A DNA stretch of 21,449 nucleotides, taken from a virus. The notes below the pieces were generated by a model. That model had not been told where the DNA came from, made no database searches, and worked only from the letters and a program-made list of their open reading frames with translations. The stretch spans positions 1-21,449 of the IMG/VR virus record IMGVR_UViG_3300020408_000052. One strand, written 5' to 3'. The first letter of the stretch is position 1, and the number at the start of each line of letters is the position of its first letter. Of the stretch, positions 1-21,449 are shown one piece after another. Made by a program: the position numbers and the translations under genes.

Positions 1-80
1 TCACTGGAAGTAGTATCTAATTGACCATCAACTAGATCAACAAGTAAACTACCATCTGTTTTGTTTAATTTATAACTCAT
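1..80 (-). CDS. Phage tail fibre-type protein, 5' end only (runs off the window)
   Basis: Only the first 26 codons are present; the gene continues past base 1. The start ATG (80-78) shares one base with the TAA stop of the upstream 676-residue fibre gene (TAATG). A strong Shine-Dalgarno GGAGG sits six bases upstream, inside the last codons of that gene, so start choice is firm and translation is probably coupled. The visible protein begins MSYKLNKTDGSLLVDLVDGQ and continues LDTTSS. This resembles the N-terminal pattern of the neighbouring 676-residue fibre (MSY start, then a G-x-(L/I)-x-V stretch and a TS pair) and of tail fibre genes I recall from marine T4-like phages. The N-terminus of such fibres is likely the virion-attachment part, so this looks like a second, paralogous fibre. 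The rest of the protein, including the receptor-binding end, cannot be seen. Confidence 0.8.
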   Translation of the reverse strand, partial: MSYKLNKTDGSLLVDLVDGQLDTTSS

Positions 81-2110: not shown

Positions 2111-2113
2111 CTA

Positions 2114-2725
2114 TTACCCCTCGTTAAAACCTGTCAAACTTTGTACTCTAACAGTGTAATCTATTTGCACTAATCTGTTTAAACTTTTTTGTACAGGATG
2201 AAAAACCACGTGTGTTAAAAGTTTACCTGTGCCACTTGGCGAATAACTAACAAGTCCTAATTCATCAAACACATATAAACTATTTGCCTGCGATGCTTGA
2301 TCAACTGCATCTTGTCCATTTGGCTCACCGTAATCTAAAAGACAAGTAACAAGAACATCTGTATAATTTGTTCCGTTTACGTGTCTAGTTTCTATTTTAT
2401 TTCTCTGAGGATCTAAGTTTGTTACACTTCTATCATCAACTACTTTGCTATATGTTTGATTATACAGACTTGCATTTGTGCCAGTACTGTTAGGAGTCAA
2501 ATATGTAATAATTCCTGTTGGATCAACACTTGTTCCGCCGTTACCAAACGCCATTGAATTAATAAAACCTTGACCTTGATTAGCAACACTCTCCGCTAAA
2601 GCAATACTCATGTTCTCATAGTGAATTGCATTGCGTTTATTGACGAAAACAGCGCCTGATTCAGGGTCATGTATCTTAATATGACCTTGTATTAAAACTC
2701 CGTTGTTTTCATTAAATTTACTCAT
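2114..2725 (-). CDS. Conserved phage virion structural protein, 203 residues
   Basis: I recognise this as a protein conserved next to the baseplate and fibre genes of marine T4-like phages, but its exact role is not known to me. Visible blocks are GHIKIHDPESGAVFVNKRNA (about 14-33), HYENMSIALAESVANQG, a glycine-rich AFGNGGTSVDPTGIITYLTP, then FDELGLVSY and LLTHVVFHPVQKSLNRLVQI near the C-terminus. There is no signal peptide, membrane segment or obvious enzyme motif. Such a small, beta-rich protein between a baseplate gene and a fibre gene could be a connector or fibre-attachment protein; that is inference from position. The start is supported by GGAG five bases upstream of ATG and by a late promoter box 19 bases upstream. 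The gene ends three bases before the tail fibre gene, so the two are probably cotranslated. It could also be a counterpart of one of the small T4 baseplate or pin proteins, but I see no specific motif for that. Confidence 0.82.
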   Translation of the reverse strand: MSKFNENNGVLIQGHIKIHDPESGAVFVNKRNAIHYENMSIALAESVANQGQGFINSMAFGNGGTSVDPTGIITYLTPNSTGTNASLYNQTYSKVVDDRSVTNLDPQRNKIETRHVNGTNYTDVLVTCLLDYGEPNGQDAVDQASQANSLYVFDELGLVSYSPSGTGKLLTHVVFHPVQKSLNRLVQIDYTVRVQSLTGFNEG

Positions 2726-2744
2726 TTATGCTCCAATTTCTATT

Positions 2745-2754
2745 GTATTTATTG
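2745..2754 (-). promoter_or_regulatory. Putative T4-type late promoter box upstream of the 203-residue gene
   Basis: On the minus strand the sequence reads CAATAAATAC. It matches seven of eight positions of the T4 late promoter box TATAAATA (AATAAATA here). The box ends 19 bases before the ATG, so a transcript starting about six bases downstream would have a leader of roughly 15 bases holding the Shine-Dalgarno GGAG. An identical 10-mer lies at almost the same distance from gp6. The last codon (CAA) and stop (TAA) of the giant gene are part of the box. Promoter activity is inferred, not shown. Confidence 0.65.
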
Positions 2755-5700
2755 CGGCGGAGCCACTTCTTTTTGACGTATGAATCTTGCGATGTCATTA
2801 TCCGTCTGACTCAGTGGATCTGTGCCTTCTTGCCAAATTTTACCTTGTTTACGTATCACCACAATTTTGGCATTTGCGGCTGGTGTATTAGTAAATGTAA
2901 TCACAGGATTTACACCATCTACTGTGAATTCTGCTGACACAGTGTCATCTGCTTCAGGACTGTCCTGTCCGTTTGCTGGATTGTACTGTGAAATACTGTT
3001 TTTACGCATTCTCTTACCGCCAACAAATAATTCAAATTGATTAGCATTTGTTGGAGTAAACGAAATAGTTAATTGATTATTTGACACATCTGCTCCTGTG
3101 TACACTTCCGATACAAACTCATCTTTGTAAGGAACTGTCTGGAATCCACTTTGATCATGAACTTCTGTGTCAGCAAAGTGTTGAGTTGGTACTCCTGTGC
3201 CATATGTACCTCTTCTTAATTGTTGTAATTTGTTACCATCCTTGATCCAATATTCAATTCTTTCACCATCTATGAAAACAATGCCAGGTAAACTAGCAGT
3301 GATATTTGGTTCCGTTATTCCTGTTGCGTCTTTCAAAACAATTTCTTTGTCATACCAGTACAATGTATTTGCAAGGAAGTATTGTCTATCATTTCCTATA
3401 CGTTTAAAGTGTGTTCTGTTCATCATATCTTTGAACTGTCTGTATGCAAATTTACCAATGAAACTTGGTGCAGAGAAATGCATGACATCTATTTGATCAT
3501 TTTGACTTACAGTTCTAGAAATCAGCACTCTCATTTGATCATTTGACACAGTGTAGTCCACACTTGGTGCTAGCCATTCTCCGTTCAATGACACCCAAAC
3601 ATATTGAGCATCAACTGCCGGCTTACGTAGATAGATTACACCGTTTGTTAATTGATTGTATTGATAATAATCGTCGCTGTTTACTGTGATTGACAATCTA
3701 GCAATCACATCTGCCTGTTCTCTTTCAATGTCTGCTATGTCATGTTTACTGAACTGATAAGCAGTAACTTTTGTATTCTGTGTTGGTGCATTGGTCAATG
3801 TCAACACACCAGCGTCTGATACACTGTATTGTCCATTGTCTATGAACACATCTAAAATATCACCAACAACACCCACACCTGACTCTAGTGTAACACTAGA
3901 ATTTCCTGGATTCCATCTGTATTGTGAACTTGTCATTTCAACATCATTTAAAAATGCTCTTACGTCAGTTGAATTAATACTGCCCGGTACTATTTGCCAA
4001 TTTTCAATTTCATATTCTCTTAATGCTGAAACTTTAAATTGTTTGTACCAACCACTTCTTAACATATTGTCTCCAACTTTAACAATTACATTAGTTGTCA
4101 AAGGCTGTTGAGCAAAAGGTGTTGGCGATAATTGATAAGTTGCTGTGCTTCCGTCACCAGTGAATTCATTTTGCGTAACTTCACTGAATGATTGACTTGC
4201 ACTTTCATATACACAAATACTAATAACAGCATCTATCGCCGGCGCTGTGTTAAATCTAATTGCTACTCTATTTGGTACAGCAAATGAACTGTCTGTTTCT
4301 AAAACTTGGAATGTTGTTCTTTGACCGTTTACTCTAACAAATACTGAAATTTTGCCTGCTGTGTATTTTGCTCTTGTAACAAAGTCAACTGTTGAACCAT
4401 CACCAGTGAATGTATCTACATCTAAAACAGATTCGCCATTGTTGCCCATAGTAATAAAATTAATTTTATTGCCATTTGCAGGTGCACTGTTGAATATGAT
4501 TTTTTTGTTTTGATAATCAACTGTGAATAAATTGCTGTTGTATAATATGTTGTTTACTGAAACAAATACAGCATCAGCACTTTGCGGATAATCTGTGTAA
4601 GCAAATTCAGTTGTAGTACCATCACCTATATAATTGTAACTGTTAATTTTACTTCCAGTGTTTGAACCTCTATCATAAACTTGTATGTCTAATGTGTCTA
4701 AAACTTGTCCTGGTACAAATTCTTCAGGTCCATGCGATGACGTCGGAGTTACAAATCCATCTCCATCAACATTTATATCCTCAGCACTTAAACCTTGTGC
4801 TGTAGAGTATGCTAAATCACCACCTTGTAAAAGTGTATCAACTTCTTTAGGATCAGGTAAGAAAGAACCATCGCTTGATGATTTTCTTATTATTATTGTG
4901 TCATTGCCCGTTTCAACAGCACTGATATCGACAGTTTTTGTAGAGCCGTCACCAATGATTGTTTCCATTACAGCATTGACATTTGTTTGCTGTGGTGTTC
5001 CAAAATTTGGATCATCAACTCTTACACCATTTCTGTATACATTGTATTGTACATTGGCTTCTAATGTTTTAGAAAGTGTTAATGATAATGTACTTTGATC
5101 CAGATAGAAAACTTCGTCTTCATAACTTTCATCATACGTGTCCCACTCACCATCCATAAACGGTTGGTTGTCCCAGCCTGATTTATTTTCAAATCCTATA
5201 CTACGTACTTCTACTCCACCATAGTCTATACCTTCAATTACCTGTGCAAGTTCCTTGCCTGGCATTCCAGCAGTTGGAGAGTAATATAAATTCACTCTAT
5301 CTTGTGTTTGTAACACATCTTGATCAATCAAATATTCTATAGATATATTTGCGTTGTTTGCCGGAGGTAAAGTGAATGAAACATAACCACAATTTCTTGT
5401 GTACGATTTAGTTTCATCTACATCATTATTAAAAGTGTATTCGCTTCTTAATTTTAATTGATTGTTTACTTTTACTTTGACAGTTGTTGTACGTAAATCC
5501 ATTGGCCATTTCAATTTAAATTTCAATTGACTTGCGTTGCCAGAGAATGTTTCTGTTCTTGTTAAATTAGCAAGTAAAAGATCTCCAGTTGTTCTGTCAA
5601 ATTTTACACCAATGTGCGTTGATCTAACAAGGCTATCACCTAAAACTGCATTGGCTTCAGCAACTGTGCCTGTAGTTGATCCTAAAATGTTTACTGTTGG

Positions 5701-8700
5701 AGCACCAATGTATCCACTACCACCATTTGTTACATTTATTCTGTTTATTGTTCCATTTTTGATATATGCTGTTGCTGTGGCTCCAGAACCTCCGCCCCCA
5801 ACTATTTCTATTGTAGGTGCGTTTTTGTAAAGTGTTCCACCTTGTTTTATATTAATAGACTTGATTGAAAAACCTACATTATCTTTCCAATGTTTGTTTG
5901 GATAAGTGTTTATGTTGTCTGCATTTACTAATGCATTGTTTTCTACCCTAATATTTGAAGGAGTAATTACTCCATTGATATATCTTGGCGGTAAATCAAA
6001 ATCTGTTAAAGAAGTATTAGTAGGTTCAATTTTATCATAAGAACTTACATATTCTCTAATTTTAGATTTGTATGGTTTTATTTCTTTAATGTAATCTTCA
6101 TAGTTGGATAGATTATCATTTTTAAATGTGACTTTTTGTTTCAAGTCGCCTACATTGTGTTGTGCTGTAACAAAACTTGTTTTAAATACCCAATCATTTA
6201 GAGTATCTTCTGATAAAGCATATCTAATACTTGCAAAGAACAATTTGTTGTATTCTAATTTTAATTCTTCAACAAATATGCTGTCCCTTACAGTTTGTAA
6301 AATAATTCTTGTTTCTTCAATAGGCTGTCTATCATAAAGTTGAACGTCAAAACTATTTGAATCAAAACCTATATTTTGATTTGCGTAATCATATAATTTT
6401 GTGTTAAATTGTATTGTTCCATTCTGTCTTCCCACAGTTTTGTAATTTACTGTGTAGTCAACATCCTCTTTATTATCTACTTTTTCTAATAGTAACCAGC
6501 CACCTGTGCCCACAGTTTCAATTTTTACTATGTCGCCTATATCACACTCGATTGCGTCTAATTCATAAGTTTGTGAAACTTTTTTATCAATGGCAGTAAG
6601 TTCACTGTATCCTGTGTCATACCAATCAGCATAGTTCCAATACAATCCAACATTGTAACTTTGTATTCTTGTACGTGTCCAACCCTCTGTTGTGTAAGAG
6701 TATATTGCCCATTTGCCTGTAACAGTGCTGTCTGCATTTACTAAAGCACTGAAATCACGCACAGTGATTGTGTCTATTGACTTGTAATTACTACCTTGTT
6801 CACGTACAACAGCATTTGACACTGAACCATTTACGTCTATTGATAATTCTATTACTGCACCTGATCCTGTTGTTGTGTTTATTGTTATTGTTGGTTTAAA
6901 TTTATAACCTTTACCTGCGTCTGAAACAAATACAGATTTAATTTTTCCGTCTTCAATTGTTGGAACTAGAGTTGCTGTTTTTACTGTACCAACACCAACA
7001 AATTGTAAATCTTTTTCTGTGTCAACTGTAACATCATACAAACCTGTTGCTGTTAAAGGTGCTGGATCAGATTTTGTTAAACTGGATAAGTCTACTTCAT
7101 CTACAATTAAGTTAGAAATTAATGTGCTGTTGATTCTTTCAATTGCTTGTTTCAAAGCCTCTTGTTTGTTTTTGAACCAACTTTGTCTTGGTTGCATCAA
7201 CGTACCATATTTTAATTTTTCACTTAATTCAGGATCTGGAACGTGATTTTCTAATTCATCGTAACCAATTAAACTGTTGAACCAAACAGTTTCAATGTCT
7301 GTTGGGATTTTGCTAGACGCTAAATTTTCAGTTACTATTGCATACTCTTCATGAATATCATTATTTGTGGCTGTGTTAATCAACCTAAAGTTTATTACAG
7401 CATCTTTATCACTTATTAATCCGCCACAGTTTACAATAGCAAATTTATTTGAACCAAATATCGTTACATATTTGTATCCTTGAGATCTTGGATCTTTAAT
7501 TAATTTTGACACGCCATTTGCAGATAAACTTCTTCCTTCAATCTGCGGAATCGATGTTTTATCTTTTACCCAGTAAAAATAAACATTTGTAAACACACCT
7601 GCAACTTGATCATATTGTTTTTTCAACACAAAGTTATTAGTGTTTGAAACTGTGCCTGTTATACCTAAAGATAAACCTTCTGGACTTGCACTTAAAGTAT
7701 TCCACTGAGTAGGCGTGTATTTTGATTGTGTCCATTCATGTATATCTATTGTTGCTCCTGGAAACAATTTATTCCAGTAAGCATTATTGAAAATTATATT
7801 ACTTTGATAAGGATAATAGTATTGTGCTTTGCTTATATCCCACCATAATCTTCCTACCTGGGTGTGGTCCCAATGATTCAAATCATCTTGTTTTGTGGAG
7901 CCTGATTGATTGTAGTATGCTGGATCATATTTTGTTTTGTAGAAAATTTCTTCTTCTGCTGGCCCTGGTATTTTTCCAAAGATCGGATCAATATAATCTA
8001 GATTTGCCAAAACTTTTTTAGTTTTTTTATTGTATAAGAATACACTTTTAATTTTTGTTAAATCAGGTTGTTCTATTCCACCAACAGTTTCATGTACACT
8101 TGTCCAGTTATTTGCATCTTGAGATCTACGGAAGTCAATAGTTGTACCTACTTCTTCATCTATTAATTGTAGATTAGGCATTCCAACATAAACGTGGTTT
8201 ACATTTACTAACAAATTAGAACCAAATTGCTGTATGCTTGTATCTGCATAAGTGAATTTTTCTGCATACAATAATGTGTTATCAAATTTTTCATAAATGT
8301 GAATTGTACCTGTGTCTTGTACAATTTTTGTGAATGACGTCATTTCATTATCGAAACTTGTTGTGCCACTATCAAAAGCAGTGTTAATTGTCATGTCACC
8401 TTTTAAACTTGTTACAGCAAGAATATCTCCACTGAAAGATAAAGCATATCCAAAGTTTTCACTTACTTCTTTAGCAGGACTTGTTAAAGTTTGTGTTAGT
8501 GAATATAGACCTGAATCGTCTGTTGCTTTCTTGTAAACATAAACAGCACCCATATCTATATCAGTAAAGTCTTTTAGAGGAGATCCAACAGCGATTAATT
8601 CACCATCGCCACTGATACTGATATCAGCACCAAAATTAATTGTAGGTCCTGAATCATCTGGTGCAGTGATTGTTTGTTTGTATGTGTAATGATTGTCATG

Positions 8701-11700
8701 CAATCTGTAAACAATTATTTTTTGACTGTCATTTGAATACAATACATTTGCAATAATATTGTTTCCATTTGTGTCAATGTCAAATCTATTTCCAAACTGA
8801 ACCATGCTGTTTTGATCTAGAGTACTATCATTCTCTAATTCAACTCCAGAATCATTTGGAATGTAGCCTAAGAAATCTGTGTGCGTATTCTGTAGTTGCC
8901 AATTTGCTGTGTCAAATGCACCAGCAATCATATTAGTTGTTGCTTTGTACAATTGATTGTTATACACAACTAGTTCACCTGTTTGATAAGCCACTGTGTT
9001 TTCAAATACGCCTCTGTATTGAGGATCAATACCTAACCACCAATTTTTAGTAGCACTGTTTTCTATGAAATAAATTTTGCCTGGTAAATTTGTAGTGCCG
9101 TCACCTTCTGCACCAATGTACGCAACAGTTTCACTGCCCACTGTTCTAATTTTAATCCTAGAACCAAATCTTAATCCAGTGGCGGCGTCAGGTATGCTGT
9201 AACCACCTGCAAAACTAAATTGTCCACTAGTTTCTTTTTTGTACACAAGGAAACAACCTTGGTTAGTGAACGCACTCTGTACACCTTCGCCTATTGGAAT
9301 GTTGTAAACTTGTATCCAATCTCTATTGACACTGCTTGGTGTGTTTGCAGAAACATTAATACCATCCAATGTTTGTTCGTCCCAAGTCCAATATTCAATA
9401 TCTCTTCCAAAGTATTCTGTGATTGTGCCTGAGAAGTTAATTGGTGCTGTGTGTTCAAACACTAATAAATTACCAATTATTCCTGGAGGCATATTGCTAT
9501 CTGTAAATGCTGTTTGTTCAATATTACCTAACAATCTATTTGGTGTACCTACAACTGTGATCGTTCCATTGAAGCCTGCATTGGAACCTTGTACAAATGG
9601 CATACCATTGCCTGATAAATTTTTGATCCATAATCTATATTTTTGCAATCCTGTATATTGAATTGCCGCCACTGTACCTTCTCCACCAAAGCCTGCTGTT
9701 TGTGTGTAAGTAGTATCACATCTGACAACGTCACCAACTGTTGGCACATAGAAGTTTGCGTTATTGTCCGGTTGTGAGTCAACATCAACATAGCCTTCCC
9801 AAACATCATTGATTGTTTTTAATCCGTTGGTGTCAGCATTAGAAATATTCAATCCTGGGAAAGTGTATCTGTTGTTTGACACAGTGTTAAACCAAACATT
9901 GATCTGATCACCTGCCTGTTTGCCTAGTGCATGATAACTTGTTTGAACGTCTGTTCTGATAAAATACTTGTTACTTAACACACTGACTGGCGAACTGTTT
10001 GCCTGCCAACTGTTTGTGCTTTGATCCACATAGTAACTTTGTGAATAAGACAGCATACCGAACTCAGCATTATAAACTGGACCTTGCGGACTGATAGGCA
10101 TCCATGGTATCTCTAATGAGTTATTGAAATGGCTGATTGTTCTTGTTATACCTTGTCTTACAATGTCATATATTACCAAGTGATTAGATGTATCTGCACC
10201 TAAATCTGTTGAAACTGCTGTTGGGAAGTCAACTCTCCACCAGCCGCCTAGGTGATTGTAATCTTCTGTGATCACTCTGTCATAGGCACCTATTTCTAAA
10301 TTTCCAAAATTGATTGAGTCTGAAGTAGAAAATACACCTTGCACATCTTTCAAATAGATAAGAGTTTTTGTTCCAACTTTGTTTACATAAACTACTGTTC
10401 CTTGTGCTGTATCTGTTGTAAGCACATTACCAACCACAGGATCAGTCAATGTTATATCAACTTTAAGAATTTCATCAATTTTTTCAACAATAGGTATTGC
10501 TTGTCCTGTGAATATTTCATTGCTGATTGTTGATACATTAATATTTTCTCCAAACGGTCCTTTTGGATCCTTTTGATAATTGTTTCTGTCTTGGTTATAA
10601 TCTGATGTGAAACTTAAATAATCTAGATATAACTTGTCACCAATTTTTGTGCCGTTGTATTGATCAGCACTTGCTCTTATTAAAAGGTGATTTGTTGTTG
10701 TGCCTGTGTGTACATAATCACCTATTAACATATTAGTGATTGCTGAGCCTGTTGCTTCGTTGTATAAACCCGCGGCATCAAAAGTTGTAAAATCTACTGA
10801 AGGATCTGCACCAATAATTTGATTAGTTGCTCTCCATAATTGTTTTTTGTATTGAACAATATTTCCTGTTGCATAATTTTGTGTGTCAACAAATTGTCCT
10901 TTGTATTCTGTTTTTAGATTGCTGGCATCTGGAGCACCAACTAAAATGTAATCACCTTCTGGGGAAATTTCCATTGCTTGTCCAAATTTACTGTTTGAAC
11001 CAAATAAATCTGTCTGCTGATAGATAGGATCTACAGTTGGTGATTGAATTACTTGTATCAGTCTTAATGTAGCACTTTCAGTTCCTCTACTGAACACATA
11101 AATTTGTCCATCATTTTCATCTGGTTGTCCTACTAATAGTATTGTGTTATTTTTGTTTGCTGATAATACTTGTCCAAAACTTACATCACCTGAATCTGTT
11201 GTTGAACTTACTGTGTCATGCTGTTTGAAAACAAATTTATTGTTTACAATTTTCCATTTACCATCATTACTTTGATCTACCCAGAATTTTTCATCATCTT
11301 TTAATCCTTGATCAACAATTCTTTGATTTATTTCTGCAATATCAGACACACGACTTGTAACAAGTCTTCTTACAAATCCTACTGCTGTTGTAATAGATTG
11401 GAATCCTGTTTTTGGTTCGCACACAATTTGATTTAAAGATACTGAACTACATTTTAACACATAGTCAGAACCATTTGCATTCACAACAAAAATCTCTCCA
11501 ACTGCCATTTCAGCATTGTTTAAAGTGGTAACTGTGATTCCATTAGGACCTGCAACAACACTTGTGATTGTTTGATTAGTATTTGAATATCTAAACACAT
11601 TCCATGAATTGTTGTAGTTTCCTACCCAAACATATTGTCCATCTTTTAATGTTGTTAAAGTTGTGCTTGTCAATAAATCATCATAACTGCCAACTGTAAC

Positions 11701-14700
11701 AGATATGTCAATTGGATTTACTGGTCCTGCAGTTTTGATGTATGTGTTTTTGTCATATTTTATAGGAAAAGGATTGTGTGTGTAATTTTCAGGTTTTAGA
11801 TACACCTCGCCTGATTGTATTCTGTACACTAGATCTGTTTCTGCTCCTGTGCCTGTATCTGTTAATTCGACTGGTTGAGGATTCAATCTTACTTTGGATT
11901 CATCCAGCACATATTCTATCTCGTCGAAAGTATCCGAAGCACCGTATTGTCCTTTACGTATGCCCCACTCTTCATAGAAATCAACGCTTTCTTTGTCCGC
12001 ACTTGCTAAAGCGTCAAACAATTTGCTTAATGCATTTGATGTTCCTTTTTCTCTAATGTAACCTTGATAAAATTTGTATTGAGCAACATCATCATTTATG
12101 ATATTTCTTAAGTACTCTCTTGGTTGATAACCAATCAAGTGTTGTGCCATTCTTTGTTGGTCAGTATCAAAGTTGTCTGTATCTAAATCGTAAAAGTCAG
12201 CAAACTGGTTTGCTTTGTAATCAAAGTTTGCATACAGAGAAGGTTGTGGGCGGTTGTCTAATCTACGCCAGTCTTCTTCATTAAATTTTTCTACTGCTTT
12301 TAATTTACTATTTGCTGTGTAATAAAATTGTTTGTGTTTGACCACATCACTCATAGCATATTTTGTAAATGGTGCCCATTCTTGTATTTTCGCTTCATCA
12401 AATATAAAGCCTGGAGATACTCCACTGCCGTCCCACTCAGTCAAGTATCCTAATACTTTGATTCTATCTTGTTTGTAACCACTTGCAGGATCAAAAATTA
12501 AGTCATTGAAAGTGGTTGTGTTATCTATGACACAAACGTTTTCTTTTTGCACCACAGGAATCTTGCAGAAATATATTCCATTTATAGTGTCTTTGAGCAG
12601 TAATTCAAATACATTTCTATCCCTTGTAACACGCACAAAGTTTTTGTCTAAATTGTTTCCGTCTTCTTTTAACACGCCGTAAGAATAAAAATTATCCAAC
12701 ACATTATCAGTAGTTGCATTTGGAGTTTCTAAGACTAATCTCTCTGCAGATGGACTCAAACTAATCACACTGCCGGCGTCCCAATTTTGTGTAGTCCAGT
12801 ATAAAAATTCACGCACTGACAATTGCCAGTTAGAAACTTTTTCTAAACTCTTTTCAAAATCATTAAATTTAAAACCTTTTGATTTTAGGTATTCTCCATA
12901 TCCTAAAATCACATCAACCACTTCTTGAACAGTTTCGTAGGTTGTGCCATATGCAACTGTTGAAACATCTGTGCTGAATTGTTTTCTTAGTTGTGCAACT
13001 GCTCCTCCTTCGATAGGCAATTCAACAAGTTTTACAAATTTTGATAGGTCGAAAGTGCTTTCTGAAAGGTGTTGTGTCTCTACTGCATAAAATTCATTGG
13101 CATATTTTACATATTGTCCAACATCATATCTTTTGTTTTCTGCCCAATTTACATAAGACGCACTTACTCCACCAACATTGATAGTTGGATCAGCAGTGAT
13201 TGGAATTGGAGCATAATATTTTATTACAGGATTGTTTTTGTCATAACCTTTTACAAGATATCCTGATGTAGTCTTTTCTATTATTAAAGCACTGTAAGTG
13301 ATAAGTTCAACAGCAGAACTTGTATTGTAAATTAATTTGTAATTTTCTTCAGGAACAAAAATATTGGCAGTGTTTGTAGGAGACTTACTGTCTAATACTA
13401 ACTTGAATTTGTCTTTGTTACTGAATCCTCTTATTTTAAATCCTATTTGTGCTTTGATATTTTTAATTTTTGCTTTGTAGTCTGCATAACTATTGACTAG
13501 ATTTACTTCAACAAAATCATAGATGTAGTTTACAAGTCCAGCAGTTAAGACTGTTGTTTTTTCAGATACAGCACTTGGAAATACCAAAGCGGAAGGTTGT
13601 AATCTTAAACCAGTTGAATAAACAATTTGCCCTGCATCATTTCTTTTTACTCTGCTTGTATCCCAACCTATACCAATTACTTTTGCTGGTTGGTGCAGTA
13701 AGAATGCTTTTAATATTGCAAAAGGATAATCCGAACTTCTTCTCCAAGCAGTTTCTACTGGACTGTGATCTCCAAATGCATACTTGGATTTCGTTAAATT
13801 TAAAACTACCTCTCTAGCATATCCACTTTCAAAAGGACTTCTTATTGTGCCTGTGCTTGTAACAGGAATATAAGAAGTTAGATTTGGTCTTTTGTATTTG
13901 TCTAGTACAACTAATTTTTTGTTAGGTTCTCTTACAACGCCTGCTTCCATATCTTTCCATAGCACAAGATTTTCTTTTGTGTACGGAGCCGGACCGTAAG
14001 TTGTTTCCCACCATGTTGGTTTTTCTGTGAAACCTATTATTTCCCATGGAGTGATATTGGGTCTATCTGTGCCAAGTAAATTTTTGTATATGCCTCTCCA
14101 ATGTCCTAATAATTTTTCACCTGTTGGTGACACAGCATTAGAATAATTCCAGGTCAAACTATTTGTATCTTGATGATATGTGTTTGCTGTATAATCTTCA
14201 TTACCAATAAATGTTGCCCATTCATTGTAATTTTGTAACAACACAGTGTTTATTGAATCATGATTAAACAAGTTTGTTCTGCCTGCTTTAGGAATAAAAG
14301 CATTGTAGTCTAACAAATCACTATTGTAAGTCGTCTTAATATTATTGTAAATTCTTTTTTCTAATTCTAGTATTAAATCATCTCTATAATCACCGTATGC
14401 TTTTGTAATACTACCGTCGTGTCCTTGTATAACATCTACAGGAGTGACTAAAGTGGTGTCGCTGTATTTTTGTGGAATATATTTTGGATATAAACCTAAT
14501 TTTGTTGGCGTTGCTGGAATGTGAGATCCGTTTGATGTGTCAAACTCTCTGATAACAATTTCATCATCAAGTGTAAGTGTTTTGGTTACGTTCACAAATC
14601 CATTTGTAAAAACATAATCTTGTCCGTGTAAAAGTTGTTCACCATTGTGGTACACGTTTACTGCTTGAATTGATAAACTGTTTAAATCAAAGTTTGTTGA

Positions 14701-17442
14701 TATTGCATAGAATTGACTGTTTGTGTCTAATACTTTGTGTGTTGTTGATTTAAATGCACCAATACCCAACATATCTGTTTGGAAAAATGCAGATGATTCT
14801 GTGTAATTTTTATTAATTGCCTCTAAAACTTTGTCCACTGCAACATCCACATTGCCATCAAAACCTAAGTTTGTTGCTTTTTCAACAAATGCTCTTTTAA
14901 ATCTTAAGTATGCTTCTTGACTGTATGCAATAGAATTTACTACGTGAATATCTTTTCTTAACAAAGTGTACATTGCAAGACTGAGTGGTCCTGAATGTTG
15001 TAAAAATTTTCTACCAAATTTTGTTGCATTTGGAAAATCTCTTAAATTACTTGCACCTGGAGTAACGCCTTCAATGCCTGTAAGTTCATTTGTGATTGTT
15101 TTAACATGGTCAGTTACTTGTCCAAGAGTAAAAGATGAAATATTATCATTTAGTGTGTTACTTTCTAAATTGTTAGGAAACTCATAGTGTCCATTTGTAT
15201 TTTTAATTGAGGCACTAGATGTTTTAATTACAACCACATCACCCACTGTTAATGCCTGACTGAAATTAATGTAAGCAACTGAATTAATTCTGTTTATTGT
15301 GTAATCTGTAAGTTCTTTTTTAATTTGGTTATTGACAAAAACTTTCACAGTTAAATCATTAAGGTCTCCGCTTTTATCATACACATCAACAGCAAAGTCG
15401 TTTGTTTGTCTTGCAGTTACATCGTATAATCTTTCAACTCTTTGATAACTCTCAGTGTCTGCTTTTTCCCAACCATTTTGTAAACTGTTTGTTGTTCTGT
15501 CAGTGAATTTTTTTAAAAATGCTGTGTCAGTGTTTACAGTTGTTTGTGTGTCGTCACCATATACAAAACTATCATTTACTAGATTAAAATCAAAAGTGAT
15601 ATCACCAATGTTGTTTACATTAAGATATTTTATTGGAAATCCTAATTCAGGATCGTTTGCTCCTACACCCTCTTGGTAACTAAAAACTTTGTTTCCTCTA
15701 AAACTTGAGTTGCTGTAATTTGTAGTATCTGTGTAACTGATTCCAGTTTCATCAAAAAGTTCAAACATTGGCGCTTGATTGACTGTTGTTTTTTCTTGTG
15801 TAAGTTGCCAAGTTGTTCCGTCGAACCAATAAATTTTACCTTGATTTTTTGTACCTTGAGTAACAAGCACCGTTTCATTTTCTAAACTTGTAGCATCTGT
15901 TACTTCAACTAAACTGATTTGTCTTGTTGTCGTATTGTTTTGTGTAAAATCTAAAAATTTAACCTCATAAATTTTGTTTTTCACAAGCGGATCTGTATCT
16001 GCTGTGAACATTACTTTCATTCCATTTGTAAGTTCTACGCCATCTATGTGATATCCTACTGCTCCTTCAACATCGCTCATTGCGTCTGTTGTTACAGTAT
16101 CAATTAAATTTATGTTACCTTTACTTGATGTTCCAAAGTTGTATAATTTTAATCCTGCTTCAAATTCTATAATTGGTCTTCTTGCTCTTAAAGATTGATC
16201 AACATTAGCAATCTGACCATTTGCTTTTGCACTGGCTTCAATGACAGACTTATGAATCCATCTGTTGTGTCTGCTCCAAGGATTTCTGTCTGGAGATGCT
16301 TTGTTAATGACTACATAGTCTTTATTCAGGGCGTAAGATGTCGCTGTGCCAAATCCTACAGTATCAAATTGTGTTGTATCAAATGGCACAGGAGTATTTT
16401 CTGTGTAAGAACTTACAACTTCTAAATTTTGTACATTTATTAATTGTATAGCATCACCTACTCCTTCAACATAATATTCTCCTTCTGCGTATTCAGTTGG
16501 AGTAATTGTGCCTTTGAAATTAATTTTCATTCCATTAGACAATTCTGTGCCGTCGGATAATGTGTAAGATTTTTTACCTATTAATTCTTTTGCAACATCT
16601 AGTTCACTGTTTTCATCTATAGTGTATATTTTTATTAGTCCCCAAGCATTAATGTCATTGTTTGCACCGTAGTATAACTTATCTGGTGCTGTGTCTGAAA
16701 CCGTGAATTCGATGACGCCTTTTTCAACTTTTTGTTGACTAACACCAACATTGTATATAAAGTCATCACTGGAACTTCTTGCAGTCTTAATTGTAAACGG
16801 AAGACCTTGTGCTGATATATCAAACTTGTATGTTTGACCTTTGTATAATGTTAAAGTTGGATTTACAGTTTTGCCATCTGGTGTAAAGATATAAGCATAA
16901 TTGTCGCCTTGATCACTTTTTGTAACCGTGTATGTGCTGACTACTGATCTTTGCTGACCCGTTACTGATACTGTGGATGCTCCGTAAGGTAGCCAAAAAT
17001 ATTCTCTATAATTAACAAATTTGTCCCAATTAATTTTTGGAGACCATGTGTAATATTCCTGTGCATTCAAATTGGAATGATCATCAGCATAGCCGTTTAA
17101 ATTTTTTACTTGATTAATATAGTCAATATAATCTTTGAAAAAATTAACATTACCTAATTCATCTGTCTGTGTGATTGCAGGTTCAAATTGATAATTTTGT
17201 CTATCATCATTGATGTCTTTAACATAGTAATCGTCTGCTTTGTAAGACTGTGTGTTCTTCCTACCATAATACGCAGAAATTTTTTCCAGTGTTCCGCTGG
17301 AAATCATTTGATCTAGTGTGCTGTTTAAAAATTTTTGATTGGCAGAAGTTCTAAAATACTTAGGTAGAAACTCCGCAGATTTTCTTCTGTTAGATTCAGA
17401 CCCTACTGGAACTGGAAATTCTTTCTTGTTGTCGTATGCCAT
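2749..17442 (-). CDS. Giant modular baseplate/tail structural protein, 4897 residues
   Basis: One open frame of 14.7 kb without a break. The N-terminus (RKSAEFLPKYFRTSANQKFL, then LNAQEYYTWSPKINWDKFVN near residues 125-145) and inner blocks resemble a large structural protein I recall from marine T4-like phages. These blocks are PTWWETTYGPAPYTKENLVL near 1140, MAQHLIGYQPREYLRNII near 1760, GRLWWDISKAQYYYPYQ near 3200, PRQSWFKNKQEALKQAIERI near 3425 and FIDGERIEYW...RRGTYGTG near 4730. Between them are four CBM5/12-like aromatic modules (about 1431-1472, 1688-1726, 2180-2222, 2809-2849), seven FG-GAP-like motifs (2089-3072), two glycine-rich GSGY repeat blocks (about 3487-3558 and 3857-3934) and GDGST beta repeats (about 4164-4440). 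No signal peptide, membrane helix or protease motif is seen. The ATG overlaps the gp6 stop (TAATG), with a weak GGA five bases upstream. Position after gp6 matches T4 gene 7 (1032 residues), suggesting a wedge role for part of it; glycan binding is inferred. An exact function cannot be assigned. Confidence 0.88.
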   Translation of the reverse strand: MAYDNKKEFPVPVGSESNRRKSAEFLPKYFRTSANQKFLNSTLDQMISSGTLEKISAYYGRKNTQSYKADDYYVKDINDDRQNYQFEPAITQTDELGNVNFFKDYIDYINQVKNLNGYADDHSNLNAQEYYTWSPKINWDKFVNYREYFWLPYGASTVSVTGQQRSVVSTYTVTKSDQGDNYAYIFTPDGKTVNPTLTLYKGQTYKFDISAQGLPFTIKTARSSSDDFIYNVGVSQQKVEKGVIEFTVSDTAPDKLYYGANNDINAWGLIKIYTIDENSELDVAKELIGKKSYTLSDGTELSNGMKINFKGTITPTEYAEGEYYVEGVGDAIQLINVQNLEVVSSYTENTPVPFDTTQFDTVGFGTATSYALNKDYVVINKASPDRNPWSRHNRWIHKSVIEASAKANGQIANVDQSLRARRPIIEFEAGLKLYNFGTSSKGNINLIDTVTTDAMSDVEGAVGYHIDGVELTNGMKVMFTADTDPLVKNKIYEVKFLDFTQNNTTTRQISLVEVTDATSLENETVLVTQGTKNQGKIYWFDGTTWQLTQEKTTVNQAPMFELFDETGISYTDTTNYSNSSFRGNKVFSYQEGVGANDPELGFPIKYLNVNNIGDITFDFNLVNDSFVYGDDTQTTVNTDTAFLKKFTDRTTNSLQNGWEKADTESYQRVERLYDVTARQTNDFAVDVYDKSGDLNDLTVKVFVNNQIKKELTDYTINRINSVAYINFSQALTVGDVVVIKTSSASIKNTNGHYEFPNNLESNTLNDNISSFTLGQVTDHVKTITNELTGIEGVTPGASNLRDFPNATKFGRKFLQHSGPLSLAMYTLLRKDIHVVNSIAYSQEAYLRFKRAFVEKATNLGFDGNVDVAVDKVLEAINKNYTESSAFFQTDMLGIGAFKSTTHKVLDTNSQFYAISTNFDLNSLSIQAVNVYHNGEQLLHGQDYVFTNGFVNVTKTLTLDDEIVIREFDTSNGSHIPATPTKLGLYPKYIPQKYSDTTLVTPVDVIQGHDGSITKAYGDYRDDLILELEKRIYNNIKTTYNSDLLDYNAFIPKAGRTNLFNHDSINTVLLQNYNEWATFIGNEDYTANTYHQDTNSLTWNYSNAVSPTGEKLLGHWRGIYKNLLGTDRPNITPWEIIGFTEKPTWWETTYGPAPYTKENLVLWKDMEAGVVREPNKKLVVLDKYKRPNLTSYIPVTSTGTIRSPFESGYAREVVLNLTKSKYAFGDHSPVETAWRRSSDYPFAILKAFLLHQPAKVIGIGWDTSRVKRNDAGQIVYSTGLRLQPSALVFPSAVSEKTTVLTAGLVNYIYDFVEVNLVNSYADYKAKIKNIKAQIGFKIRGFSNKDKFKLVLDSKSPTNTANIFVPEENYKLIYNTSSAVELITYSALIIEKTTSGYLVKGYDKNNPVIKYYAPIPITADPTINVGGVSASYVNWAENKRYDVGQYVKYANEFYAVETQHLSESTFDLSKFVKLVELPIEGGAVAQLRKQFSTDVSTVAYGTTYETVQEVVDVILGYGEYLKSKGFKFNDFEKSLEKVSNWQLSVREFLYWTTQNWDAGSVISLSPSAERLVLETPNATTDNVLDNFYSYGVLKEDGNNLDKNFVRVTRDRNVFELLLKDTINGIYFCKIPVVQKENVCVIDNTTTFNDLIFDPASGYKQDRIKVLGYLTEWDGSGVSPGFIFDEAKIQEWAPFTKYAMSDVVKHKQFYYTANSKLKAVEKFNEEDWRRLDNRPQPSLYANFDYKANQFADFYDLDTDNFDTDQQRMAQHLIGYQPREYLRNIINDDVAQYKFYQGYIREKGTSNALSKLFDALASADKESVDFYEEWGIRKGQYGASDTFDEIEYVLDESKVRLNPQPVELTDTGTGAETDLVYRIQSGEVYLKPENYTHNPFPIKYDKNTYIKTAGPVNPIDISVTVGSYDDLLTSTTLTTLKDGQYVWVGNYNNSWNVFRYSNTNQTITSVVAGPNGITVTTLNNAEMAVGEIFVVNANGSDYVLKCSSVSLNQIVCEPKTGFQSITTAVGFVRRLVTSRVSDIAEINQRIVDQGLKDDEKFWVDQSNDGKWKIVNNKFVFKQHDTVSSTTDSGDVSFGQVLSANKNNTILLVGQPDENDGQIYVFSRGTESATLRLIQVIQSPTVDPIYQQTDLFGSNSKFGQAMEISPEGDYILVGAPDASNLKTEYKGQFVDTQNYATGNIVQYKKQLWRATNQIIGADPSVDFTTFDAAGLYNEATGSAITNMLIGDYVHTGTTTNHLLIRASADQYNGTKIGDKLYLDYLSFTSDYNQDRNNYQKDPKGPFGENINVSTISNEIFTGQAIPIVEKIDEILKVDITLTDPVVGNVLTTDTAQGTVVYVNKVGTKTLIYLKDVQGVFSTSDSINFGNLEIGAYDRVITEDYNHLGGWWRVDFPTAVSTDLGADTSNHLVIYDIVRQGITRTISHFNNSLEIPWMPISPQGPVYNAEFGMLSYSQSYYVDQSTNSWQANSSPVSVLSNKYFIRTDVQTSYHALGKQAGDQINVWFNTVSNNRYTFPGLNISNADTNGLKTINDVWEGYVDVDSQPDNNANFYVPTVGDVVRCDTTYTQTAGFGGEGTVAAIQYTGLQKYRLWIKNLSGNGMPFVQGSNAGFNGTITVVGTPNRLLGNIEQTAFTDSNMPPGIIGNLLVFEHTAPINFSGTITEYFGRDIEYWTWDEQTLDGINVSANTPSSVNRDWIQVYNIPIGEGVQSAFTNQGCFLVYKKETSGQFSFAGGYSIPDAATGLRFGSRIKIRTVGSETVAYIGAEGDGTTNLPGKIYFIENSATKNWWLGIDPQYRGVFENTVAYQTGELVVYNNQLYKATTNMIAGAFDTANWQLQNTHTDFLGYIPNDSGVELENDSTLDQNSMVQFGNRFDIDTNGNNIIANVLYSNDSQKIIVYRLHDNHYTYKQTITAPDDSGPTINFGADISISGDGELIAVGSPLKDFTDIDMGAVYVYKKATDDSGLYSLTQTLTSPAKEVSENFGYALSFSGDILAVTSLKGDMTINTAFDSGTTSFDNEMTSFTKIVQDTGTIHIYEKFDNTLLYAEKFTYADTSIQQFGSNLLVNVNHVYVGMPNLQLIDEEVGTTIDFRRSQDANNWTSVHETVGGIEQPDLTKIKSVFLYNKKTKKVLANLDYIDPIFGKIPGPAEEEIFYKTKYDPAYYNQSGSTKQDDLNHWDHTQVGRLWWDISKAQYYYPYQSNIIFNNAYWNKLFPGATIDIHEWTQSKYTPTQWNTLSASPEGLSLGITGTVSNTNNFVLKKQYDQVAGVFTNVYFYWVKDKTSIPQIEGRSLSANGVSKLIKDPRSQGYKYVTIFGSNKFAIVNCGGLISDKDAVINFRLINTATNNDIHEEYAIVTENLASSKIPTDIETVWFNSLIGYDELENHVPDPELSEKLKYGTLMQPRQSWFKNKQEALKQAIERINSTLISNLIVDEVDLSSLTKSDPAPLTATGLYDVTVDTEKDLQFVGVGTVKTATLVPTIEDGKIKSVFVSDAGKGYKFKPTITINTTTGSGAVIELSIDVNGSVSNAVVREQGSNYKSIDTITVRDFSALVNADSTVTGKWAIYSYTTEGWTRTRIQSYNVGLYWNYADWYDTGYSELTAIDKKVSQTYELDAIECDIGDIVKIETVGTGGWLLLEKVDNKEDVDYTVNYKTVGRQNGTIQFNTKLYDYANQNIGFDSNSFDVQLYDRQPIEETRIILQTVRDSIFVEELKLEYNKLFFASIRYALSEDTLNDWVFKTSFVTAQHNVGDLKQKVTFKNDNLSNYEDYIKEIKPYKSKIREYVSSYDKIEPTNTSLTDFDLPPRYINGVITPSNIRVENNALVNADNINTYPNKHWKDNVGFSIKSINIKQGGTLYKNAPTIEIVGGGGSGATATAYIKNGTINRINVTNGGSGYIGAPTVNILGSTTGTVAEANAVLGDSLVRSTHIGVKFDRTTGDLLLANLTRTETFSGNASQLKFKLKWPMDLRTTTVKVKVNNQLKLRSEYTFNNDVDETKSYTRNCGYVSFTLPPANNANISIEYLIDQDVLQTQDRVNLYYSPTAGMPGKELAQVIEGIDYGGVEVRSIGFENKSGWDNQPFMDGEWDTYDESYEDEVFYLDQSTLSLTLSKTLEANVQYNVYRNGVRVDDPNFGTPQQTNVNAVMETIIGDGSTKTVDISAVETGNDTIIIRKSSSDGSFLPDPKEVDTLLQGGDLAYSTAQGLSAEDINVDGDGFVTPTSSHGPEEFVPGQVLDTLDIQVYDRGSNTGSKINSYNYIGDGTTTEFAYTDYPQSADAVFVSVNNILYNSNLFTVDYQNKKIIFNSAPANGNKINFITMGNNGESVLDVDTFTGDGSTVDFVTRAKYTAGKISVFVRVNGQRTTFQVLETDSSFAVPNRVAIRFNTAPAIDAVISICVYESASQSFSEVTQNEFTGDGSTATYQLSPTPFAQQPLTTNVIVKVGDNMLRSGWYKQFKVSALREYEIENWQIVPGSINSTDVRAFLNDVEMTSSQYRWNPGNSSVTLESGVGVVGDILDVFIDNGQYSVSDAGVLTLTNAPTQNTKVTAYQFSKHDIADIEREQADVIARLSITVNSDDYYQYNQLTNGVIYLRKPAVDAQYVWVSLNGEWLAPSVDYTVSNDQMRVLISRTVSQNDQIDVMHFSAPSFIGKFAYRQFKDMMNRTHFKRIGNDRQYFLANTLYWYDKEIVLKDATGITEPNITASLPGIVFIDGERIEYWIKDGNKLQQLRRGTYGTGVPTQHFADTEVHDQSGFQTVPYKDEFVSEVYTGADVSNNQLTISFTPTNANQFELFVGGKRMRKNSISQYNPANGQDSPEADDTVSAEFTVDGVNPVITFTNTPAANAKIVVIRKQGKIWQEGTDPLSQTDNDIARFIRQKEVAPPQ
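3910..4980 (-). repeat. GDGST beta repeats near the C-terminus of the giant protein
   Basis: Four copies of a GDG(S/T)T motif stand at about residues 4164, 4272, 4347 and 4431. The last three are FTGDGST or YIGDGTT followed by an alternating hydrophobic strand, and two of them are followed by strands such as VFVSVNNILYN and VFVRVNGQRTTF. This is the pattern of tandem beta-sandwich repeats common in phage fibre and baseplate proteins. The copies diverge at protein level; on the DNA two share only the short stretch tcaccagtgaat. The number of repeats is a minimum from reading by eye. Confidence 0.6.
5640..6985 (-). repeat. Two glycine-rich GSGY repeat blocks in the giant protein
   Basis: Two related blocks lie at about residues 3487-3558 and 3857-3934. 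Each contains a pair of half-repeats with the pattern V-x-x-x-G-x-G-Y-x-x-x-P-T-(I/V)-x-I followed by a GSGA or GGSGA turn. Examples are VSDAGKGYKFKPTITI, GGGGSGATATAY and VTNGGSGYIGAPTVNI. Repeats of this look are frequent in marine phage structural proteins and are likely beta-structured. The two blocks are separated by about 300 residues of unrelated sequence. Confidence 0.65.
8170..11190 (-). repeat. Seven FG-GAP-like propeller motifs, split into 2 + 5
   Basis: Motifs of the integrin-alpha FG-GAP type appear in the giant protein near residues 2089 (VSFGQVLSANKN), 2153 (KFGQAMEISPEGDYILVGAP), 2758 (LRFGSRIKI, then VAYIGAEGDG), 2883 (VQFGNRFDIDTNGN), 2937 (INFGADISISGDGELIAVGS), 2996 (ENFGYALSFSGDILAV) and 3072 (QQFGSNLLVNVNHVYVGMP). 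Several are followed by a strand ending in YVF or YVY. Spacing of 54-76 residues fits propeller blades, except for a gap of about 605 residues after the second and 125 after the third. Seven motifs is the usual blade number for FG-GAP propellers. The assignment is by eye. Confidence 0.65.
8890..13150 (-). repeat. Four CBM5/12-like aromatic modules in the giant protein
   Basis: Four segments of about 40 residues share a pattern: aromatic start, Y-x-x-G-x-x-V-x-(Y/H), an aromatic pair with A, and an F-x-x-x-x-W/F end. They begin near residue 1431 (VNWAENKRYDVGQYVKYANE), 1688 (IQEWAPFTKYAMSDVVKHKQ), 2180 (FVDTQNYATGNIVQYKKQLW) and 2809 (YQTGELVVYNNQLYKATTNM). This resembles the small chitin/cellulose-binding domains CBM5/12 (ChtBD3). 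Copies three and four lie directly after the second and third FG-GAP motifs. Sugar binding is inferred from the pattern only. Confidence 0.55.
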
Positions 17443-20400
17443 TAATATCCACTGCCTCCTCCACTAGAGCCTCCTGAACTAGAACTCGTAGAACCTGTTG
17501 CACTCGAACTAGAAGCAAGTGTGCCACTTAATGAAGATGACGTAGACGTAGAACTTGTTGTCACTGTGCCAGTGGCTTTAATTTGTGCGGCTGTGACCGC
17601 ATCTATAATTTCAATATCTGAAACTTTTGCTCCACTTATGAAAATTTCATCGCTTTCTGAACTGATTTCAAACAAACTTCCGAAACTTTGATTGCCTGCT
17701 TTCGGTACAATTATAAAGTTTGAAATGTCCGGTGCTAACTCTAACATAACAAAAGCCGATAGTTCTGTAAAGTAAAAACTATCTCCAAAGTTCCAATTTT
17801 CTAAAGCAAAAAATTCATTTATTGCAGAAATCACTCTGCTTTTTATATCAGCATCATTTGTAACTTCTTCGCTATTTTTAACAATTTTAAAAGTTGCTTG
17901 TAAATCTGCACTTGCATTTTCACCAAATAACACTTTGTATTTTACAGGGTGATATATTAATGTATCACTAATTGACTTCATTGTTGATAATGAAGCATTA
18001 AAATTATTGTACAAAGAATCACTGCTTGGTAATAGAGGTGGTGTAGCAGTAACACCTGCTAACCATTGTCTAAAATCAATATCATATGTTCTTGTTAAAA
18101 CGTACATATCTATAATGTTTGTTACACTAGGATCTAATCTCGTATTGCCATCAACTGTGTGTACATATTGGAATTTTACTTTGTCTCTTCCTAAATGAGC
18201 AATGTAATTTGTTTCTTCTGAAGTTGTGTTAGTTGTTGTGTTAACCTTTTTAAATGAATTTGTATCAACAATGTAAACTATTGAACCATCAACATAATCG
18301 CCTATTGCACCAACTGAACTTTGTCTCACATAAATCATTTCTTCTGTTGCATCAACATACGCATATCTTTGAGTACCGTTTTGACCATCAATTAATTTTT
18401 GGAAAACATATTTTGATGTAATGTTCACAGTAGGAGCAACAACATCATTGAAAGCATCTGGATTATCAACTATTCCATCTTGGTCACTATCAAAATGAGT
18501 CAATTCAAGTTTTGAACTATCAATATAACCTTGTGCTGTTCTAAATTCTGTTGCAACACTAAAGTCAATATCATTAGTGAATGCTGTTGTAGTGTCTGGT
18601 TTTGTGTTAAAAGATAAAACAGATATTCTGTCTTGTAAAGTTTTTCCTGTTACTATGTTGAAATTTCTATCTACACTGTCATAGAAAAATCTAACTTCTC
18701 TTTTACTTTCAAATACATAACGCAATGATCTTGTAGCCATTGTGTATGTTGCACCATTATTTGTAAAACGCAAAATCCAACTTGAATCTAATTGTTGATT
18801 TGTTACATCACCAGTTTTACCTGTGCTAAAATCACCGTACACATTTAAATTATTTTCGTCAATAACTTGCCATGACCTTGTTGCAACGTCATATCTTAAT
18901 CCAAAATTGTTGTAAGCAAAAGTTTGATCAATAATTAAAGTTTTAATATCATTTGCAATTTGTTTAGAAAATTTAGGAAGTATTTGTGTTGCAATAGCAT
19001 CACTTGGCACCACATCATTAAATTGTATTGGTCCTGATCCTGTTCCTGGATCTGTTGCGCCATCGTTGTAAACACTTACAACAGCAGTCCATATGTAAGT
19101 TTTAGAACCTAAGTGATCAGCCGCTCCAGACATTAATGAGCCGTCTGCCATAAAATGTTTGCCTGCTGGTGCTTCAAATTTTATCATTGCACCTGGTTCA
19201 ATGTATTTCAATTGACTTGCTGTAAATCTACCCACTTGATAATCAACTGCTGAAGCAGAATCTTTTAATTTCCCTGTAGATGAATTTGTGTCTTTACTTG
19301 ATTGCACCCAAGTTGCATTTAAATCAGTTAATAATATTTTTGGAAATTTTTCTATGTAATAATTTCTAACATTTTTGTTAGCCAACATAGGTTCAATTTT
19401 GTTTATTATTACTGCTTCAATATCTGTTTGTGTGGTAAAATCAAAATTATCTACAGTTTCATTTTCTTCTTTGTAAATTACACCGTCATTGCCAAACAAA
19501 TTTGTGTTACTGTATTTTCCTGTTGCATCTATTAAATCAAAATATCTTGATATACCACTTGCTGTTCTATTAATTGCTTTTACTTTTATAATTTCTTGAT
19601 TAGTTCCTAAAGGAGCAACATTATAATCTTCAGCGGTAACCATTCTGCCTTGCGTGTAATATGTTGCTGGGGCATTAGTTTTAATATTTTCAGTTGATTC
19701 CGATGTTGTTGCATTGTCAACTGTGTATTGTAAACCTAATGTTAAAGTCATTGTTTCAGTTTGGTTATTCTGTGAAACATAATCTATATCTACAGCAATG
19801 TTCTGCATATCGTCAGGAACCATTCTTAAATTTTGATTTGCACTTGTTCTGTAATATACTCTAAAATTACCTTGTGGCAAATTTCCAAACACTCCGTCAG
19901 CAAATTTTAATTGTATTCTATCTTCTGCTCTACTTAAAACTGTGTAAATGTCTTTTATAGATTTGACAGTAGAATTAAAAATTACATTGTTTCCAACTAC
20001 ACTGTCAACTTTTGTCCATAATGTATCTTCTGCACCAGCATCATTTAATGAATATAACCAAACGTCTGTGTTGTTTATATTTCTTGCATCAATTGAAACT
20101 GATTCATTATTTGAAGGATTTGTTATTGTAAAATCTCCTTGATCCAAAACTCCTTGTCTAAAGTGGCAGAAAAATCCTGTGTTAGGACTTGAATTTCCTT
20201 TACCATCATCTCTATGAACGAAACTTAATGGCTCACTTACTTTAGGTGCTTGTTCTTGTAAACTTTCATTGTCAAATGTTGTTGATACTATTTCAAATTC
20301 TAAACTTTGTCCACTAATACTTTTTGAAAAAGTATAAACAGGCGTATCTAAAGTCGCTGTGTTGAATCTATATTGTGCAGTAGGAATAGAATCTATTGTT

Positions 20401-20979: not shown

Positions 20980-21420
20980 TTAATTTAGTAATCCGTTGTT
21001 TTGGTCAAAAGTTAATTTAAGTCTTTCAGAAATGTTATATTTCAAATATTCTAACTCAATTTCAATTTGTATGCCCGATTCAAATGGCGTAACAACAATG
21101 GCAGTTGCTCTAATTCTAGGGTCACTATCGATAATTGACTGTACATTGTTTTTTAATGCTACTTCCACCTCGTCTGTAAGTGGATCAAATAATATATCCC
21201 AAATAATTGTGCCAAATTCAGGATTCTCTAATTTTTCCCCTTGTCTAATGTGGAAATGATTTAATAAATCTTGCTTGATAAGACCTATATCATATAAAGC
21301 AAATGAAGAGTTGGCTTCATTCACTGTGCTGATACCTCTGTACATTTTCTGACTAGGTGGCTGTGTTTTGAACTCTTTGCCTGCTACCACCGTCTCTTTA
21401 TATAATTTTTTCTCTGCCAT
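20980..21420 (-). CDS. gp25: Baseplate wedge protein gp25 (GPW/gp25 family)
   Basis: gp25 is a small wedge protein that anchors the sheath initiator region to the baseplate; the family (Pfam GPW_gp25, PF04965) also includes the TssE/HsiF sheath-baseplate proteins of type VI secretion. The 146 residues are close to T4 gp25 (132). The family core runs from about residue 38 to 135: LYDIGLIKQDLLNHFHIRQG, then GEKLENPEFGTIIWDILFDP (61-80) with the acidic/aromatic pattern typical of the group, SDPRI (99-103) matching its DPR element, and a final amphipathic beta hairpin. The ATG at 21420 is the only sensible start, as the next Met is at residue 26 and closer to the core. No convincing Shine-Dalgarno is visible in the 29 bases before it, which is unlike the other genes here. 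The gene is followed by a 49-base gap holding a late promoter box and then gp6, a wedge neighbour. Confidence 0.94.
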   Translation of the reverse strand: MAEKKLYKETVVAGKEFKTQPPSQKMYRGISTVNEANSSFALYDIGLIKQDLLNHFHIRQGEKLENPEFGTIIWDILFDPLTDEVEVALKNNVQSIIDSDPRIRATAIVVTPFESGIQIEIELEYLKYNISERLKLTFDQNNGLLN

Positions 21421-21449
21421 AACAATATTTACTTTATTTTTAACCCCCT

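Follow-up and report, generated by a model that had tools for sequence, protein, structure and literature searches.

A giant protein from a known jumbo-phage family, encoded where T4 has gene 7, with a predicted integrin alpha-like propeller between its conserved halves

The stretch of DNA analyzed (the window), from a marine phage, comprises 21,449 bases and is a complete virus record, so that only relatives can supply a broader genomic setting. It is dominated by one giant open reading frame (ORF) with an ATG start, 4897 codons and no internal stops. This frame takes up 68.5% of the window, and the mass predicted for its product is 547.7 kDa (about 548 kDa). The giant gene, its neighbors, and the segments of its product are listed in Table 1. 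The order gp25-gp6-giant-small gene-fiber is conserved, and the gp6 stop and the giant start overlap by one base. Since the stop-free run is so long, the frame is not due to chance; furthermore, profile comparison matched four stretches covering most of the product to phrog_10938, annotated as "virion structural protein" (1.5e-302). The original prediction, made from the sequence alone, of one uninterrupted frame that fills about two thirds of the window and is no chance artefact was thus borne out, as was, by profile matches, its view of the product as a virion or baseplate protein encoded by a single gene adjoining gp6 and gp25.

Table 1. Genes of the window and segments of the giant protein, in gene order
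Feature	Positions	Strand	Size or residues	Basis or remark
Baseplate wedge gp25	20980..21447	(-)		GPW_gp25 3e-06; open at contig end
Baseplate wedge subunit gp6	17442..20930	(-)	1162 aa	phrog_10646 8.4e-303
Giant gene	2749..17442	(-)	4897 aa	phrog_10938 virion structural protein; T4 gene 7 position
N-terminal conserved half	11578..17442	(-)	1-1955	Kept in environmental and cultured members
CBM5/12-like module	13018..13164	(-)	1427-1475	VIA-align, chitin-binding domains, Z about 7
CBM5/12-like module	12250..12393	(-)	1684-1731	Fold match to Milano baseplate chain 8fqc_P1, Z 8.1, 45 residues, 1.2 A
Helical segment with FYxGxIxxKGT motif	11743..12240	(-)	1735-1900	Predicted model; low confidence alone
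Predicted integrin-alpha-like seven-bladed propeller with insert	8101..11235	(-)	2070-3114	AF2 model, fold match
FG-GAP blade 1	11065..11184	(-)	2087-2126	Blade profile
FG-GAP blade 2	10858..10995	(-)	2150-2195	Blade profile
Insert between blades 2 and 3 (561 residues)	9175..10857	(-)	2196-2756	Blade profile
FG-GAP blade 3	9040..9174	(-)	2757-2801	Blade profile
CBM5/12 module between blades 3 and 4	8923..9003	(-)	2814-2840	Pfam CBM_5_12
FG-GAP blade 4	8674..8799	(-)	2882-2923	Blade profile
FG-GAP blade 5	8515..8640	(-)	2935-2976	Blade profile; Pfam FG-GAP_2 2922-2970, 2.8e-10
FG-GAP blade 6	8329..8460	(-)	2995-3038	Blade profile
FG-GAP blade 7	8101..8232	(-)	3071-3114	Blade profile
Second conserved half	5893..8034	(-)	3137-3850	Family conservation
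C-terminal part, more variable	2752..5892	(-)	3851-4897	Family comparison
Gene downstream of giant, phrog_11259	2114..2725	(-)	203 aa	Profile match; conserved, no function assigned
Fiber-type protein, phage tail collar domain	80..2110	(-)	676 aa	Collar 7.2e-20

A scan of viral contigs with the giant as query returned 76 distinct loci; several are near-identical, and locus counts are therefore not independent. The gene lies fully inside the contig in 44 of them; complete largest frames number 45, but that of L047 encodes gp6, while the giant there extends past the contig end. A single giant ORF of 3390-5368 aa is present in 43 of these 44 environmental loci, and in 32 of the 43 the end of gp6 coincides with the first base of the giant. 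The sole exception is L044, in which the giant is divided into two frames (break at L044 18017-18345); at this point 133 nt present in the near-identical, intact L075 are missing, and an assembly fault is therefore likely. Independent contigs with the single ORF include L013 (98% identity, 4897 aa) and L011 (94%, 4896 aa). The giant was also a single ORF in all eight named phages fetched, namely, PA5oct (3857 aa), Atu_ph07 (4449 aa), RaK2 (3326 aa), SCTP-2 (3807 aa), Vibrio 2.275 (3771 aa), 121Q (3323 aa), CBB (3340 aa), and Phosso (4555 aa), and the preceding gene is annotated as baseplate wedge in six of them. In Vibrio 2.275 that gene is gp6-sized and annotated with CBM5/12. The unnamed gene before the giant in Salicola phage SCTP-2 (L005 4612-13902) encodes 3096 aa, far above other gp6 genes, and possibly represents a second giant wedge protein. 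Counting against a single gene, several annotated features lie under the match in four named records (K64-1 NC_027399 and Salmonella SD-1, SD-2, and SD-6); one feature does so in the other K64-1 record (AB897757). Given the single ORF in almost all complete environmental loci, the giant gene is not an assembly artefact, and the possibility raised alongside the original prediction, that homologues would be separate genes, does not agree with what was found in these loci and in the eight named phages fetched.

The giant belongs to PHROG 10938, a family that is known but has been described little and that is filed by PHROGs under "head and packaging." Searches with tblastn matched residues 1-2700 to 64 and residues 2701-4897 to 57 named phage records (E up to 1e-5 in both cases), and a conserved 461-residue slice to 58 (E up to 10). 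The relatives were mainly RaK2-like, PA5oct-like, and Atu_ph07-like jumbo phages. When the entire window was compared with named phages by megablast, the sole match was a short stretch of gp6, shared with nine PA5oct-like phages. Similar giants are thus present in other large T4-like phages, as the original prediction had suggested, among them PA5oct, Atu_ph07, RaK2, 121Q, and CBB. The giants of RaK2/PBECO4/121Q/CBB/PA5oct/Atu_ph07-type jumbo phages share with that of the window the gene position, the two conserved halves, and the very long ORF, whereas in six cultured members that were tested the product is shorter (3323-4449 aa) and the giant gene carries no FG-GAP blades. Among the listed results of literature searches, limited to papers outside subscription, we found no description of the giant protein. 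Separately, phrog_2885, annotated as "baseplate wedge subunit" and matched by L003:18528-19223, has 4179 positions, and other giant wedge families therefore exist.

Several homologues have been detected by virion proteomics. The PA5oct homologue, gp355, carries an ESI-MS/MS tag in its record, and CBB_236, which is the same gene as the giant homologue, is reported in the virion with 21 unique peptides that cover 7.72% of it (PMC5259590). For phAPEC6, gp245 (381.88 kDa) is reported with 17 peptides and 7.6% coverage beside gp244, a "baseplate wedge" (PMC7247149); judging from size and gene order, gp245 is probably the giant homologue. As homologue coverage is only about 8%, a full-length chain in the virion lies beyond these data. 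The detection of homologues and the location directly after gp6 place this PHROG 10938 member in the position of T4 gene 7.

The original prediction also held that recognizable blocks run from start to end of the protein. This stood for its middle, with named domains (FG-GAP and CBM5/12), and not for the rest, which is conserved within the family and matches no described domain. For the whole giant, Pfam CBM5/12 reached 1.4e-06, over the cut-off, and the fold matches agree. In the model of slice 1010-1975 (pLDDT 69, with a poor helical part at 1735-1900), the clear fold matches were the two CBM5/12-like modules; the first of these has a Pfam CBM_5_12 match under the cut-off (5.3e-05) and the second no Pfam match. 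No known wedge fold was among the matches listed for this slice, and phage baseplate chains matched it only through small CBM-like domains. The concern that no slice might resemble a virion protein was thus answered in part, by the baseplate chains matched through these small domains and not by a wedge fold in the conserved part. Profile searches against PDB gave nothing useful for residues 1-1010 and 3840-4897 and only a tailspike stretch for residues 3100-3860. There was no match in NCBIfam, and the one phmmer hit of the giant against PDB was judged to be due to chance.

A short segment at window 16513-16896 (giant residues about 183-310) is common to Synechococcus phage tail-fiber-type proteins and looks like a mobile accessory domain by sequence; its best listed matches were 6e-6 in a marine virus record and 1e-4 in Bellamy. 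The cyanophage matches listed for the N-terminal slice, a list beyond which 122 further records fell, were confined to about residues 177-310 and fell in a tail-fiber-type gene. Bellamy gene 29, annotated as "baseplate wedge initiator," is that tail-fiber-type gene, and we therefore rejected it as evidence on gp7. Elsewhere, at 129-135 kb of the record of L054 (G004), two frames of about 1640-1690 aa contain several repeated CBM5/12-like matches.

The AF2 model of residues 1955-3130 (mean pLDDT 78.8, pTM 0.60) aligned to integrin alphaM with a Z score of 34.2 over 353 residues (3.1 A, 15% identity; VIA-align). The best 50 rows of this search were integrin alpha chains, most of them aligned from the first residue of the chain. 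In Foldseek, too, integrin alpha heads made up most of the top PDB rows, the best of them at 1.7e-07, with an IFT-A component at rank 1. Like the integrin alpha-chain head of the alpha-I type, the predicted fold has seven blades, the second and third of which are separated by a large insert; it differs in that identity is about 15% and in that the giant is a phage virion protein. In animal integrins, alpha-I domains are inserted between propeller blades 2 and 3. The insert of the giant occupies the corresponding place, and the shared position may reflect convergence or a common tolerance of that loop. A simple DxDxDG-like pattern occurred once in the blades of the window and nowhere in L033, L062, L071, and L076, and the blade cation loops do not appear to be clearly conserved. 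FG-GAP propellers occur in other viral proteins. The proposal that part of the giant faces the host gains support from the CBM5/12 modules and the predicted seven-bladed propeller, which make this part look host-facing.

The segment between the conserved halves, with 1176 aa in the window (1955-3130), varies largely among members. In most environmental members it holds roughly 660-1270 residues with FG-GAP blades, and its equivalent spans 118 aa in RaK2 and 121Q, 145 aa in L080, 178 aa in Vibrio 2.275, 260 aa in PA5oct, 414 aa in SCTP-2, and 1398 aa in Atu_ph07. Pfam FG-GAP_2 was present in all 21 members scanned (the window and 20 environmental members, a set outside which L080 falls), and CBM_5_12 in 15 of the same 21. 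Among the seven giants of another comparison set, Pfam FG-GAP was found only in the window. A blade profile partly trained on the same sequences was run on 40 giants or fragments of giants and gave exactly seven matches in 26, window included; one of the 26, L076, owes its seventh to a weak match that lies far downstream. The longest linker lies between blades 2 and 3 in 24 of these 26 members, which are not independent (94-576 residues; 561 in the window). A held-out blade profile, built from five window-like members, detected blades in 26 of 27 other environmental giants, with 1-6 in each of the 26, and none in the 6 cultured giants or in 33 shuffled sequences. L080 has no propeller, and this profile found no blades in it. 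As propeller-free versions exist (RaK2, 121Q, and L080), the basic role of the protein does not depend on the propeller.

FG-GAP matches were confined to the frame of the giant in five environmental records searched, whereas the related jumbo phage Atu_ph07 carries an FG-GAP propeller in a separate gene outside the giant (a stand-alone 409-aa frame at about 243.0-243.3 kb in the record of L003). An Atu_ph07 protein named hemagglutinin was a fold match and is probably the product of this gene, which could be the source of, or a parallel to, the inserted propeller. The listed results of literature searches, limited to papers outside subscription, contained no description of FG-GAP or integrin-type propellers in phage tails, and the terms FG-GAP and RaK2 are absent from the main text of a study on marine jumbo phages (PMC9123017). 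What is new is the propeller variant between the conserved halves, the family itself being already known.

In T4, genes 7-12 come after gene 6. T4 gp7, a wedge subunit of 1032 aa, is encoded directly after gp6 as the giant is, but has no detectable sequence similarity to the giant, which is about five times longer. When nine slices of the giant were compared by profile with 16 individual T4 proteins and with a gp7 family of five members, no probability exceeded 5.9%; against the five gp7 sequences, hhalign reached at most 5%. The FYxGxIxxKGT motif near residue 1790 resembled T4 gp7 around residue 736; it was discarded as a link, since its focused score (14.6) was exceeded by shuffled controls (up to 17.8 in 20). 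In Pfam and PHROG scans of ten members, the motif segment matched its own family and weak others, except in L003, in which an extra segment of its own gave other PHROG matches down to 4.7e-07. We also searched 11 records, namely, seven environmental ones that may be fragments, PA5oct, Atu_ph07, RaK2, and T4. While gp53 was found in all 11 (four over the cut-off), the gp8 profile and the five-sequence gp7 profile each matched the T4 control and none of the 10 non-T4 records, all of which were matched by the profile of the giant. The giant thus occupies the T4 gene 7 position, and homology to gp7 is unproven; since sequence gives no link, equivalence rests on gene place and the absence of another gp7 in these records. 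A gp7 substitute, VrlC, has been reported in cyano- and pelagimyophages (PMC7029224); the giant may share with it this replacement of T4 gp7 in marine T4-like phages.

The reading that we favor, at a probability of roughly 0.6, is that PHROG 10938 giants are wedge scaffolds that do the work of T4 gp7, to which, in most environmental members, an outward, host-binding propeller module is added. About six copies would join gp6, gp53, and gp25 in the wedge, where the giant would perform the work of gp7 and its two conserved halves would form the scaffold. By sequence and model, the predicted propeller of most environmental members lies in the linker between the halves, with CBM5/12-like modules in its loops and nearby. 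A fold by itself does not establish function; the propeller may touch the host, and the module would point outward, bind host surface sugars or proteins, and help to anchor the baseplate or trigger contraction.

The main competitor, which we consider unlikely, is that the giant is a tail fiber, whisker, or other adhesin attached near gp6 and outside the wedge core. The CBM5/12 modules and the propeller, the beta-rich model, and the variable middle would all suit an adhesin, and the RaK2-like phage CBB is reported to have whisker-like tail structures (PMC5259590). Against this speak the adjacency to gp6 with the frequent one-base overlap, the high conservation of the conserved halves, and the failure to find another gp7 in the records searched. 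The merger suggested in the original prediction, in which one gene joins and replaces the wedge genes 7, 8, and 10 of T4, appears more doubtful still. It would account for the position after gp6, the length, and the lack of gp7 and gp8 elsewhere in the records searched, but the profiles detected no T4 wedge sequence in the giant: no slice matched any of the 16 T4 proteins or the gp7 family, and gp8, gp9, and gp10 domains gave no match inside it with Pfam or profiles. Moreover, three environmental records have a weak gp9/10_N-like stretch, below the cut-off, in a 239-aa frame distinct from the giant, and PA5oct keeps its own gene annotated as gp10-like. We regard as very improbable that the product is a precursor whose cleavage yields several mature proteins, leaving no giant chain in the virion. 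The modular layout and the low peptide coverage of the homologues (PMC5259590, PMC7247149) would fit such processing; on the other hand, no sign of cleavage was seen, and the phAPEC6 table gives one product of 381.88 kDa, maybe only a predicted mass (PMC7247149).

In contractile tails, adhesion parts are usually found in separate fiber proteins. In a widespread group of environmental jumbo phages, a likely host-facing fold seemingly lies within the wedge-position protein itself. We tentatively propose, as a possibility short of an even chance, that environmental relatives of RaK2- and PA5oct-type phages carry an integrin-alpha-like head within the linker of a wedge protein of half a megadalton; host sensing and contraction would then be united in one chain, and an exchangeable insert between blades 2 and 3 would provide specificity. 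Family members with and without the propeller permit a clean comparison, and the system makes it possible to ask directly whether a wedge protein can set off contraction by contacting a receptor.
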